Of a stretch of 64,000 nt of DNA, positions 42,911 to 46,069 are shown piece after piece; position 1 is the stretch's first letter; each line of letters begins with the position of its first letter. The translations under genes were made by a program, and so were the position numbers. Under the pieces are notes generated by a model. It saw nothing but the letters and a program-made list of their open reading frames with translations, made no database searches and was not told where the DNA came from. Source of the stretch: Flavobacterium sp. 140616W15 (GTDB taxonomy: Bacteria > Bacteroidota > Bacteroidia > Flavobacteriales > Flavobacteriaceae); contig NZ_CP033068.1 of NCBI RefSeq assembly GCF_003668995.1, forward strand, positions 1,550,001 through 1,614,000. Reading direction: 5' to 3'.

Positions 42911-43861
42911 ATGCAAAACATTCCTAGTGTAGACTTACGTGATTTCCTTTCGGACAACCCGGAACGTAAACAAAAATTTGTAAATGAAATCGGAAATGCA
43001 TTTGAAAACATTGGCTTCGTTGCCCTAAAAGGTCACTTTTTAGATGATCAGTTAGTTGACGAACTTTATGGCGAAATTAGAAAATTTTTCGCATTGCCAA
43101 TAGAATCTAAACATAATTATGAAATCCCAGGTATTGGAGGTCAGAGAGGTTATGTTTCTTTTGGTACAGAACACGCCAAAGGGAGAAAAGAAGGTGACTT
43201 AAAAGAATTCTGGCATTTTGGTCAGTATGTGAGTGAAAATTCTAAGTATGCTTCAGAATATCCAGAAAATGTTGAAGTTACAGAATTGCCTAAATTTAAT
43301 GCTGTTGGTAAAGAAGCGTACCAAATGCTTGAAAAAACTGGAGTTTATGTTTTAAGAGCTTTAGCATTACACCTTGGATTAGATGAATTTTACTTTGACA
43401 AATATGCCAAAGACGGAAATTCAATCTTACGTCCTATTCACTACCCACCAATTACATCGGAACCTAAAGATGCAATTCGTGCTGCTGCTCACGGTGATAT
43501 CAACCTTATTACCTTATTAATGGGAGCACAAGGAAAAGGATTACAAGTTCAAAATCATGATGGAGAATGGATTGATGCCATTGCCGAAGATGATCAATTG
43601 GTAATTAATGTTGGAGACATGCTTTCACGTCATACCAACAACAGGCTAAAATCGACTATTCACCAAGTAGTTAATCCACCAAGAGAATTATGGGGAACAT
43701 CTCGTTACTCAGTTCCGTTTTTTATGCACCCAGTAAGCGATATGCGTTTGGATTGTTTAGAAAACTGCATTGATGCCGAGAATCCTAAGAAATTCGAGGA
43801 TATTACTGCTGGAGAATATTTATACGAACGTTTGGTAGATTTGGGTTTAATCAAAAAATAA
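42911..43861 (+). CDS. isopenicillin-N-synthase-family Fe(II)/2-oxoglutarate oxygenase
   Basis: A 316-residue non-haem iron oxygenase. Iron ligands are His194 and Asp196 (A-H-G-D-I-N) and His251 (S-T-I-H-Q-V); the 2-oxoglutarate or substrate carboxylate is held by R-Y-S (Arg265, Ser267). The N-terminus S-V-D-L-R-D-F is typical. Bacterial members hydroxylate small molecules, and no antibiotic genes are nearby. It is monocistronic, with a promoter box and a 15-bp terminator. Confidence 0.9.
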   Translation: MQNIPSVDLRDFLSDNPERKQKFVNEIGNAFENIGFVALKGHFLDDQLVDELYGEIRKFFALPIESKHNYEIPGIGGQRGYVSFGTEHAKGRKEGDLKEFWHFGQYVSENSKYASEYPENVEVTELPKFNAVGKEAYQMLEKTGVYVLRALALHLGLDEFYFDKYAKDGNSILRPIHYPPITSEPKDAIRAAAHGDINLITLLMGAQGKGLQVQNHDGEWIDAIAEDDQLVINVGDMLSRHTNNRLKSTIHQVVNPPRELWGTSRYSVPFFMHPVSDMRLDCLENCIDAENPKKFEDITAGEYLYERLVDLGLIKK

Positions 43862-43882
43862 TCTTTAAATTTACCTAATTAT

Positions 43883-43917
43883 AAAAAGACATTGAGTTTA
43901 TACTTAATGTCTTTTTG
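43883..43917 (+). terminator. intrinsic terminator after the oxygenase gene
   Basis: AAAAAGACATTGAGT pairs with ACTTAATGTCTTTTT (one G-U), with loop TTAT and a T tail. Confidence 0.9.
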
Positions 43918-43990
43918 CTTTATGAAACTAGAATATCATTTATATAGCTTTTATAATTTTGCTCTTAATTAGTTGCGCGATGTAAAATAT

Positions 43991-44013
43991 TGAACGCGGA
44001 TGACGCGGATTTT
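43991..44013 (+). repeat. left copy of a 23-bp inverted repeat around the GxxExxY gene
   Basis: Starts TGAACGCGGATGACGCGG. It is the exact reverse complement of 44518-44540 over 23 bases. Each copy has an internal direct repeat (ACGCGGAT). Confidence 0.95.
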
Positions 44014-44068
44014 TTAAAGTTTTCAGAATAGAGAAAAATTTCGTAATATCAGTATTTAAAAATATATT

Positions 44069-44452
44069 ATGAGTAGCATTTTACATAGAGAATTAACAAA
44101 ATCAATTTTAAAAGTTTTTTTTGATGTTTATAATGAACTGGGCTATGGGTTCCTTGAAAGAGTATATCAGAATTCTTTATTCTATGAACTTAAATTAAAT
44201 GGTTTTAAAGTAGAGACACAAAAGAAAATAAAAGTTTATTATAAAGAAATTGTGGTTGGAGATTATATAGCTGACATAGTTGTAAATGATTTAGTGATAT
44301 TAGAATTAAAAGCGCAAGAATATTTAGTAGAAGCAAATGAATTTCAATTAATAAATTATTTAAAAGCAACGCACTGTGAAGTTGGACTTCTTTTAAATTT
44401 TGGAAAAAAACCCGAATTCATTAGAAAAGTATATCAAAACAATCGAAAATAA
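44069..44452 (+). CDS. GxxExxY family protein
   Basis: A 127-residue protein with the family signature G-F-L-E-R-V-Y (27-33). The rest has D-Y-I-A-D-I-V with Asp69 and I-L-E-L-K with Glu79 and Lys81, a PD-(D/E)XK nuclease core, so nucleic-acid cleavage or binding is likely. The family is frequent and often multicopy in Bacteroidota; its biological role is unknown. The gene is flanked 55 and 65 bases away by perfect 23-bp inverted repeats. Start ATG 44069. Confidence 0.9.
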   Translation: MSSILHRELTKSILKVFFDVYNELGYGFLERVYQNSLFYELKLNGFKVETQKKIKVYYKEIVVGDYIADIVVNDLVILELKAQEYLVEANEFQLINYLKATHCEVGLLLNFGKKPEFIRKVYQNNRK

Positions 44453-44517
44453 AGAATCTGTTTCTGTTTAATCAGCGTCTAAAACACCAAACACGTAAAA
44501 CTAGAGGGCCAAAAAAT

Positions 44518-44540
44518 AAAATCCGCGTCATCCGCGTTCA
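44518..44540 (-). repeat. right copy of the 23-bp inverted repeat
   Basis: AAAATCCGCGTCATCCGCG and onward; exact inverse of 43991-44013. The two copies bound a 550-bp segment holding only the GxxExxY gene. Confidence 0.95.
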
Positions 44541-44600
44541 AAAATATAGAGTAGTATTTAAAATATTACTATTTGCAGTCAAAATAAAAATACAATACAA

Positions 44601-44930
44601 ATGGACTTACAAGACCAACTAAAAAATCTTTTCCCAGATCACGAAGTATCTCCTGACGAAATTGTGATTCCAGAAGATCATACGCTTTTTATCCAAAAAG
44701 AACCAATGATTTGTAAATACGAAAAACGAAAAGGGAAAGCCACTACAATTATCGAAGGTTATGAAGGAACCGATGAAGATTTTAAAATCCTAGCGAAAGA
44801 AATTAAAACCAAATTAAGTGTTGGCGGAACTTTTAAAGACGATTCTATTATTATACAAGGTGATTACCGCGATAAAATAATGGAAATACTAAAAGCAAAA
44901 GGTTTTAAAGTAAAACGTGTGGGAGGCTAG
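44601..44930 (+). CDS. SUI1/eIF1-like translation factor (YciH family)
   Basis: A 109-residue protein of the SUI1 fold. The segment K-R-K-G-K-A-T-T-I-I-E-G (about 42-53) corresponds to the ribosome-facing basic loop of eIF1. Then come K-L-S-V-G-G-T-F and the end I-L-K-A-K-G-F-K-V-K-R. In bacteria the YciH protein can affect start-codon choice in vitro, but its physiological role is open. It stands alone just outside the 23-bp inverted repeat. Confidence 0.9.
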   Translation: MDLQDQLKNLFPDHEVSPDEIVIPEDHTLFIQKEPMICKYEKRKGKATTIIEGYEGTDEDFKILAKEIKTKLSVGGTFKDDSIIIQGDYRDKIMEILKAKGFKVKRVGG

Positions 44931-45202
44931 AGTTTAGTACACGTAATCAGTTTTGGTTTTCAATTACATAACTTTAAGCTTAAAATTTTTCTTTGCGAAC
45001 CTTGCGTTTATAAAGATCTAGAATGAAACCTTTGCGACCTTTGCGGTTAAATCACAAAAAACACAGGAAAAGATACAGGAAAAGACGCACTGCGGTGCGC
45101 CTCTACAGAACAAAAAAACAAAAAACATATGGTTTATGCGATTCTATAAAAAACCTTAGAATCTCAGAACCTTTGCCTCTTTGAACCTTTAAAAATAAAA
45201 CA
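44931..45202. other. repeat-rich intergenic stretch
   Basis: Holds CCTTTGCG-type direct repeats near 45030, the REP-like palindrome at 45083, and CCTTAGAATCT and CCTTTG words up to the next start codon. No open frame is supported. Confidence 0.6.
45083..45107. repeat. REP-like palindrome
   Basis: AGACGCACTGCGGTGCGCCT followed by CTACA; the stem GACGCAC/GTGCGCC has one mismatch. It is the same family as 28098-28122, with the same following words. Confidence 0.8.
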
Positions 45203-46069
45203 ATGATACAATCATCAGAATTAATACTAAATCCAGACGGAAGCGTCTATCATTTGAATCTTCTTCCAGAAAATATTGCTCATGACATTATTTTTGTAGG
45301 TGATCAAAATCGTGTTGAAAAAATCACTCAGTTTTTTGACAGCATCGAGTTTTCTACTCAAAAAAGAGAATTTAAAACACAAACCGGAATCTATAAAGGG
45401 AAAAGAATTACTGTAATGTCAACAGGTATTGGTCCAGACAATATAGATATTGTTGTTAATGAGCTAGATGCTTTGGTGAACATTGATTTAGAAACTCGTA
45501 AACCAAAAGAAAACCTAACTTCATTAAATATTATTAGAATTGGAACTTCAGGTTCGTTACAAGCTGATATTCCTGTAGATAGCTTTGTAATGTCAACATT
45601 TGGTCTAGGACTTGATAATATGCTTCGCTCTTATTTAATTGATGAAGTTTCAAATGCTGCTATGGAAGAAGCTTTTATAAATCATACCAATTGGGACATT
45701 CGTAAAGGAAAACCGTATGTGATTGCATGTTCTGAGAAACTAGAAAAACTTATCGAGAGTGACAAGATACACAAAGGAATCACTGCAACTGCAGGAGGTT
45801 TTTATGGTCCACAAGGGCGTGTTTTACGTTTAAACATTCAAGATGAAGAATTAAATGCTAAAATGGATAATTTTACGTTTAATGATAATCGAATTACAAA
45901 TCTAGAAATGGAAACAGCAGCTATTTATGGGCTTTCGGCATTATTAGGTCATAATGCTTTATCACTAAATGCTATTATTGCTAATCGCGCTTCGGGAACT
46001 TTCAGCGAAGACCCATATAAAGCTGTTGATGAATTGATTAAATATACATTGAATAAAATTGTTGGATAA
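45203..46069 (+). CDS. nucleoside phosphorylase (uridine-phosphorylase-like)
   Basis: Splits nucleosides with phosphate into a base and ribose-1-phosphate. It has 288 residues. Visible are V-G-D-Q-N-R-V (about 34-40), the phosphate-binding G-T-S-G-S-L (about 115-120), and the ribose-binding E-M-E-T-A-A (about 235-240). The fold is PNP/UDP family 1; uridine is the most likely base but cannot be proved. No other nucleoside genes are nearby. Confidence 0.88.
   Translation: MIQSSELILNPDGSVYHLNLLPENIAHDIIFVGDQNRVEKITQFFDSIEFSTQKREFKTQTGIYKGKRITVMSTGIGPDNIDIVVNELDALVNIDLETRKPKENLTSLNIIRIGTSGSLQADIPVDSFVMSTFGLGLDNMLRSYLIDEVSNAAMEEAFINHTNWDIRKGKPYVIACSEKLEKLIESDKIHKGITATAGGFYGPQGRVLRLNIQDEELNAKMDNFTFNDNRITNLEMETAAIYGLSALLGHNALSLNAIIANRASGTFSEDPYKAVDELIKYTLNKIVG

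Follow-up and report, generated by a model that had tools for sequence, protein, structure and literature searches.

Sequence comparison places GxxExxY genes from eleven phyla (one of them with a doubtful arm) between inward-pointing arms built from short units, and one such cassette lies in the stretch of Flavobacterium DNA analyzed here, a window of 64,000 nucleotides. We think it rather probable that this cassette represents the gene-carrying copy in a nuclease-repeat system that resembles REPIN/RAYT and works with an unrelated enzyme. An earlier interpretation of the window from its letters (the sequence-only reading) had suggested a nuclease gene bounded by its own recognition sites. The recurrence of the flanking arms across phyla, together with a last unit base that tracks the protein clade, lends this prediction strong support.

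The cassette and its gene

The locus comprises the following features, in window coordinates.

43883..43916, + strand: terminator-like hairpin of the upstream gene, an outer landmark outside the cassette
43990..44013, + strand: left arm TTGAACGCGGATGACGCGGATTTT, the exact reverse complement of the right arm
43995-44001 and 44004-44010, + strand: CGCGGAT units of the left arm
44069..44452, + strand: GxxExxY gene, 127 aa, PD-(D/E)XK fold (PF13366 / TIGR04256)
44471..44477, − strand: degenerate inner unit CGCTGAT
44518..44541, − strand: right arm, an exact inverted copy of the left arm
44521-44527 and 44530-44536, − strand: units of the right arm

The inverted repeat, first described as exact over 23 bp, proved slightly longer: it is exact over 24 bp (43990-44013 / 44518-44541) and at 90% identity reaches 31 bp (43983-44013 / 44518-44548). 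The direct repeat that had been noticed within each arm corresponds to two CGCGGAT units with a spacing of 9 nt. At up to 3 mismatches, the 17-mer ACGCGGATGACGCGGAT occurs at only two places in the 64-kb window, the two arms, and none of 100 shuffles gave a match. The 24-bp arm has TTGAACGCG at its start and GGATTTT at its end, with CGTC internal only and on the minus strand. The inner unit at 44471-44477 is probably the remnant of a once longer right arm, and in gene-less elements of this genome the matching place is occupied by a similar inner stretch. Units of the CGCAAAG type are also present on the minus strand at 44991-44997, 45030-45036, and 45039-45045, in the interval that separates the SUI1 gene from the following ORF and that contains no GxxExxY gene.

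The GxxExxY gene is, as the sequence-only reading had it, alone between the repeats, and the cassette is flanked by protein genes (ORFs of 316 aa and 109 aa). Its 127-aa product scores above the curated cut-offs of both PF13366 (E = 4e-38; 130.7 bits, cut-off 22) and TIGR04256 (E = 6e-37; 126.6 bits, cut-off 35). The motif G27-FL-E30-RV-Y33 is encoded at 44147-44167, the PD-(D/E)XK residues E30, D69, E79, and K81 are invariant across 115 sequences, and the protein is a probable DNA-cutting enzyme. The Pfam search gave PF13366 as its sole match, with no HUH (Y1) transposase, and no transposase family was matched in the Pfam and TIGR profile searches. An AlphaFold2 model of the protein (pLDDT 91.5) has as its nearest folds SSO0001, which we take to be a Cas4, and other RecB-like nucleases; we dropped the fold comparison as a guide to function because many PD-(D/E)XK families score alike. 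Cas4 enzymes carry four cysteines for an iron-sulfur cluster. Unlike Cas4 and the RecB-like nucleases of the four-cysteine type, the window protein has only one cysteine and therefore no four-cysteine iron-sulfur site. We also set aside a link to defense, for which the sole support was a weak Cas4b match in PADLOC (E = 0.004); a comparison with PHROGs gave three weak matches, to families of unknown function.

Compared with 10 orthologues, the window gene has dN/dS values of 0.03 to 0.11 (dS is near or above 2 in four of the comparisons), and by this measure it is under purifying selection. The family is large, with at least 7998 candidates scored in one search, all of them significant. Three open-access papers that use the family name (PMC8934634, PMC12085832, and PMC9756366) mention neither repeats nor a nuclease assay in the text around the name. 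The open-access papers searched contained no link between GxxExxY and repeats, subscription papers and preprints lying outside the scope, and an open-access search by the repeat letters returned unrelated papers only.

Inverted arms around GxxExxY genes

For each gene, the 250-nt left flank was compared with the reverse-complemented 250-nt right flank. A score of 13.5 served as the threshold, being the 99th percentile of 2249 sliding controls taken at these loci. Across phyla (the best 80 of 558 loci; 73 testable and 7 skipped for short flanks), inverted arms exceeded 13.5 at 48 of the 73 testable GxxExxY loci; 25 had no inverted pair above the threshold, and the direct orientation also exceeded it at 21 of the 73. 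Within the genus, 25 of 30 testable loci passed (35 loci, 5 dropped as short), as did 23 of 28 loci from the orthologue search (30 loci, 2 dropped; the window's own locus is included). The neighboring SUI1 gene, taken as a control, passed at 0 of 28 (30 loci, 2 dropped). Among 245 other mechanically called ORFs (90 aa or longer) of the 80 cross-phylum loci, 4 exceeded 13.5; by eye, they are two GxxExxY genes, one four-helix-bundle gene, and one HAD-type phosphatase; with the two GxxExxY genes and the four-helix-bundle gene set aside, 1 of 242 other ORFs is flanked. Applied to the other ORFs there, the arm test therefore detects almost only the GxxExxY and four-helix-bundle families. A swapped-flank control gave way to the sliding and other-ORF controls, since repeat families recur at loci of different genomes and had contaminated it.

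The arms have a period of 9 to 10 nt, and their units follow the pattern CRCNRA with one further, last base; the units run in the forward sense to the left of the gene at 83 of the 89 loci with at least two units. Arm mismatches at 96 GxxExxY loci comprise 75 that are compatible with G-U pairing versus 114 opposite transitions; because they do not favor G-U-compatible pairs, there is no sign of selected pairing between the arms. The transitions are asymmetric in a way that amounts to a strand bias, the commonest being a left-arm A opposite a right-arm G. Two individual loci (L247 1483-1857; L251 1471-1899) were also noted: Bacteroides finegoldii has a two-armed cassette tight between radA and the gene of an FAD-dependent protein, and in Sphingomonas a GxxExxY gene flanked by fabD and fabG has an arm on its left side alone.

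Unit type and protein clade

In a set from which loci without an arm pair above 13.5 had been excluded beforehand, and whose genus loci include near orthologues, protein distance correlates with arm distance (Mantel r = 0.63 over 94 loci; 0.80 for 46 loci in the genus and 0.49 for 48 loci across phyla), and each of the three values was reached by 0 of 2000 permutations. As the last unit base, 44 loci have G, 40 have T, and 5 have A or C. A tree of 94 proteins was built from few columns, and 38 of its 91 inner branches are open; on it, the last base changes 3 times over 89 labeled rows when A and C are merged (5 times when they are kept separate), versus a mean of 33 changes when it is shuffled, with 0 of 200 shuffles as low. 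Bacteroidota, Chloroflexota, Verrucomicrobiota, Planctomycetota, Acidobacteriota, Pseudomonadota, Spirochaetota, Thermodesulfobacteriota, Hydrogenedentota, Ignavibacteriota, and Fidelibacterota (represented by the single locus L085, whose arm is doubtful) occur intermixed on this tree, and by this reconstruction the last unit base tracks the protein clade and not the host phylum. A T-type locus (L019) lies within the G-type clade. Because few deep splits carry the signal, we see in it a long-lasting linkage and not many independent adaptations.

The residue before Y97 is among those that best separate the types. It is T or S in all 44 G-type loci and N in 38 of the 40 T-type loci, the exceptions being one T and one gap; the window protein has N96 immediately before Y97. 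Eight loci examined later (two on viral contigs and six from the eight plasmid records) all follow the same rule, as judged by eye and not blind; four of them pass the arm threshold, and the rest have weak, one-sided, or direct arms. Such comparisons strongly imply that the enzyme recognizes the repeats, and the clade-to-base rule opens recognition to direct tests, for which small proteins and short DNAs suffice.

It could be argued that the gene is a passive hitchhiker, inserted into pre-existing palindromic repeats or co-amplified by host recombination and itself inactive on the repeats. Repeats are common in these genomes, and the activity of the enzyme on them is a prediction. However, other ORFs are almost never flanked in this way, the repeat type tracks the protein clade across phyla, and dN/dS is well below 1, and we regard hitchhiking as quite unlikely.

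Repeats within and across genomes

At up to 2 mismatches, the window repeat has nine matches in its own genome, two of which are the cassette arms. The remaining seven lie at six sites, none of them with a GxxExxY gene. At three of the six sites (four of the seven matches), a second arm completes a gene-less inverted pair; the two starts are separated by 106 to 242 nt, and further inner units are present. The window's own repeat family is rare in its genome and absent from a 400-kb sample of it; the CCACAGATT, ACCATTAAG, CACGAATT, CGCAGATT, and CGCAAAG arm families have 3 to 13 copies each in this sample (score of at least 15), with no match for the reversed controls of these five. The genome holds five GxxExxY loci, one of them broken (a sixth listed match overlaps the broken locus). 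Three of the other four are flanked by inverted arm pairs of different sequence (CCACAGATT, ACCATTAAG, and CACGAATT types), and the fourth, L011, has an inverted CGCAGATT pair on one side only, with flanks that score at background. Families can also be nested, as at L218 (6213-7590), where CGCAGATT arms recur every ~255 bp inside an inverted ACCATTAAG pair.

Our genus set of 101 genomes, some of them incomplete, has the gene at E ≤ 0.001 in 79 and no gene in 22. The two-unit pattern CRCRRAKNNCRCRRAK has a median of 25 matches per genome with the gene versus 3.5 without it, and the reversed pattern, used as a control, has a median of 2 in both groups. Restricting the comparison to a genome size of 2 to 4.3 Mb gives medians of 16 with and 3 without the gene. 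The genes' own arms contribute a mean of 0.57 matches per gene (30 loci), and after their subtraction the medians are 22.9 versus 3.5 (p = 5e-8; for genomes up to 4.3 Mb, p = 4.8e-6); subtraction of 2 matches per gene copy gives p = 1.4e-4, and subtraction of 4 gives p = 0.08. At least 10 two-unit matches are still present in 4 of the 22 genomes that lack the gene. The repeats are dispersed and linked to the gene, and the abundance unconnected with GxxExxY genes that the sequence-only reading had named as grounds against its own proposal was not found.

G-type matches number 3.20 per Mb in the 47 genomes with a G-type gene, 1.95 in the 32 with other types only (p = 0.004 between these two groups), and 0.12 in the 22 with none. 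Ten of the 32 genomes with other types only hold at least 10 G-type matches, and the window's own genome has 70, with no G-type gene at E ≤ 1e-48. As judged from these counts, abundance is type specific only in part. Neighbors within 300 nt among 150 places listed from 12 genomes comprise 20 inward, 0 outward, and 13 same-strand arrangements, and the distance between the starts of inward neighbors is 28 to 127 nt, which leaves no room for the gene. Three-unit matches are present in 31 of 40 other-phylum genomes, chosen from 54 non-Bacteroidota loci, with 615 matches in total versus 4 for the reversed control and 346 of the 615 in one genome (Herpetosiphon); all 40 carry the gene and hence provide no test of absence.

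One could also imagine a housekeeping nuclease that trims or resolves repeat structures such as cruciforms or stalled forks, so that genomes would tolerate the repeats only with the gene and the repeats would spread by other means. This would leave unexplained both the gene's own position inside an arm pair and the unit base that follows the protein clade, and the arm mismatches, with no G-U preference, give no sign of selected arm pairing. We consider such a housekeeping role unlikely.

History of the locus

Ten of 11 orthologues at 81-96% identity (L127-L137) adjoin a SUI1 gene, by coordinates; for L135 the place of the SUI1 gene is not listed. Nine of the 11 are above the arm threshold, with L128 (13.0) and L129 (10.0) below it, and CGCGGAT-like units are still readable around the L129 gene (L161). 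In a comparison with ten orthologues, the arm 21-mers are the best-conserved flank stretches on both sides (15-16), with flank 21-mer means of 8.8 and 8.5 and a value of 14.8 for the upstream terminator. The position of the arms immediately beyond the gene and their conservation in orthologues would suit operators for autorepression by the protein, the scattered arms being further binding sites. Yet such a regulator would not need a mirror copy beyond the stop codon, neither gene-less inward pairs nor composite arrays fit this reading easily, and the invariant catalytic residues suggest cleavage, all of which makes self-repression a very unlikely explanation.

In several species the cassette is still found next to the SUI1 gene. 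The near relatives L157, L158, and L160 have the terminator-like hairpin (43883-43916) and neither gene nor arms at the site. A clean empty site, one of the signs of mobility that the sequence-only reading had proposed to look for, was not found in these three genomes: the missing stretch is wider than the arms and extends into the outer sequence on both sides, and its ends do not coincide with them. Because other species keep the cassette there, loss is likelier than clean insertion in these relatives. L168, which has no cassette at the site, has another inverted repeat, ACCACATAGAAACATAGAAA ... TTCTATGTGGT, within ~200 nt before the SUI1 gene.

Two gene-less elements are each recognizable at an unchanged site in three out of four relatives, one of which has partly lost an arm; the fourth relative, G276, has other sequence or other repeats at those places. 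This sharing speaks against insertion polymorphism of the two elements, which we take to be old. By these comparisons, then, the gene and many of the repeats appear to be long resident.

Target duplications were the other proposed sign of mobility, and none stands out. Outer direct repeats of at least 3 nt occur in 35 of 95 cases versus 24.2 (sd 4.1) in permuted pairings, those of at least 4 nt in 15 of 95 versus 9.2 (sd 2.8), and those of at least 5 nt in 6 versus 3.7 (sd 1.9), a modest excess with no fixed length. With the window protein as the only query, the gene was found in 8 of 72,556 plasmid records, and a viral scan with two peptide patterns gave 2 loci with the gene. The description of the locus as a non-autonomous mobile cassette holds in part: the scattered gene-less inverted pairs look non-autonomous, but the cassette copy itself looks gene-carrying. 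Neither the place kept beside the SUI1 gene, nor the outer direct repeats, nor the ends of the cassette-less sites in the near relatives give a clear sign of recent mobility of the cassette.

Relation to known systems

MITEs are short gene-less elements with the termini of a gene-bearing parent insertion sequence. Similarly, the gene-less elements described here share termini with a gene-bearing copy; unlike in MITEs and their parents, there is no match to a transposase family. Outer direct repeats, where the target duplication of a MITE or DDE-type insertion sequence would show, are modestly above permuted pairings. A homing endonuclease gene interrupts its own recognition site. In the window, a complete arm, the putative recognition site, stands on each side of the gene.

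As far as the consulted sections of the respective papers describe them, REPIN-RAYT systems (REPtrons) likewise have a gene with inverted repeats and inward gene-less pairs (PMC8049555, PMC3733652, PMC8266576). In the same sections, RAYTs (REP-associated tyrosine transposases) come with more repeats in gene-bearing genomes and with long vertical inheritance, and were not sighted on plasmids (PMC8049555), comparable to the commoner repeats in genomes with a GxxExxY gene and to its long vertical inheritance; RAYT enzyme and repeat are reported to co-evolve (PMC8266576). However, RAYTs are described there as HUH enzymes (PMC8266576), whereas the GxxExxY enzyme belongs to the PD-(D/E)XK type, and REPs as having a GTAG or CGTC tag at one end (PMC3733652), which is missing from the ends of the window arm. 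Moreover, GxxExxY arms consist of iterated 9-10-nt units, and paralogues within one genome differ in unit type. Because enzyme and repeat design differ, the cassette is not a member of the REPIN/RAYT family.

Four-helix-bundle genes (TIGR02436) provide a parallel, with 12 of 30 loci above 13.5 and 14 above 12.0 and a period of 7-8 nt. Inverted iterated arms were seen at the four-helix-bundle (S23/IVS-type) loci L187, L190, L194, L196, L201-L204, L206, L208-L211, and L213, with units of 7-8 nt such as GTAGTCA or AGTATCA. This period agrees with that of the Coxiella 23S rRNA intervening sequence, described in the sections of PMC4990558 consulted as a suspected old mobile element with a small S23p ORF, inverted repeats, and tandem heptamers upstream of the ORF. 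The GxxExxY cassette shares with such intervening sequences a small ORF, inverted repeats, and short tandem units, and differs from them in its protein family and its 9-10-nt period, as against heptamers and excision from rRNA by RNase III; its location, between the 316-aa and 109-aa ORFs, is not in 23S rRNA.

These likenesses, namely the similar arms with a 7-8-nt period of four-helix-bundle genes (the IVS protein family) and the Coxiella heptamers, would favor an RNA-level element similar to a 23S rRNA intervening sequence, with arms that pair in the transcript, which is then processed. Against it stand the missing G-U bias among the arm mismatches, the lack of any Rfam match at E ≤ 1 across 43800-45210, and the position of the cassette between protein genes. 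We rejected RNA pairing of the arms on the first two of these grounds and consider an RNA-level element hardly probable at all.

Proposed mechanism and implications

For the nuclease-repeat system that we favor, we infer that the enzyme spreads the repeats by binding, cutting, and copying. The GxxExxY protein would bind the iterated units and then cut or nick at them, and repair of the break would copy the arms, and at times the gene too, from site to site. Such copying would both spread gene-less copies and keep the two arms alike. A small Cas4/RecB-like PD-(D/E)XK nuclease would thus play the part of the HUH enzyme, as RAYT does with REPINs.

More tentatively, we propose that GxxExxY cassettes may form a new cross-phylum class of mobile or repeat-propagating elements, in which a lone Cas4/RecB-like PD-(D/E)XK nuclease reads 9-10-nt units via residues beside Y97. 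This class might be the source of much of the CRCNRAK-type interspersed repeat in environmental bacteria, and the four-helix-bundle (23S-IVS-type) genes might be a second, independent version with a 7-nt unit.

To our knowledge, many short interspersed repeats in bacterial genomes have no known maker. With the system proposed here, a very large nuclease family of unknown function gains a probable substrate, and a class of repeats found in many phyla gains a probable maker. If cleavage is sequence specific, the family would be a set of small nucleases (about 125 aa) with graded specificity. The four-helix-bundle parallel bears on the open origin of the 23S rRNA intervening sequences, which the 7-nt version, if true, would also explain.
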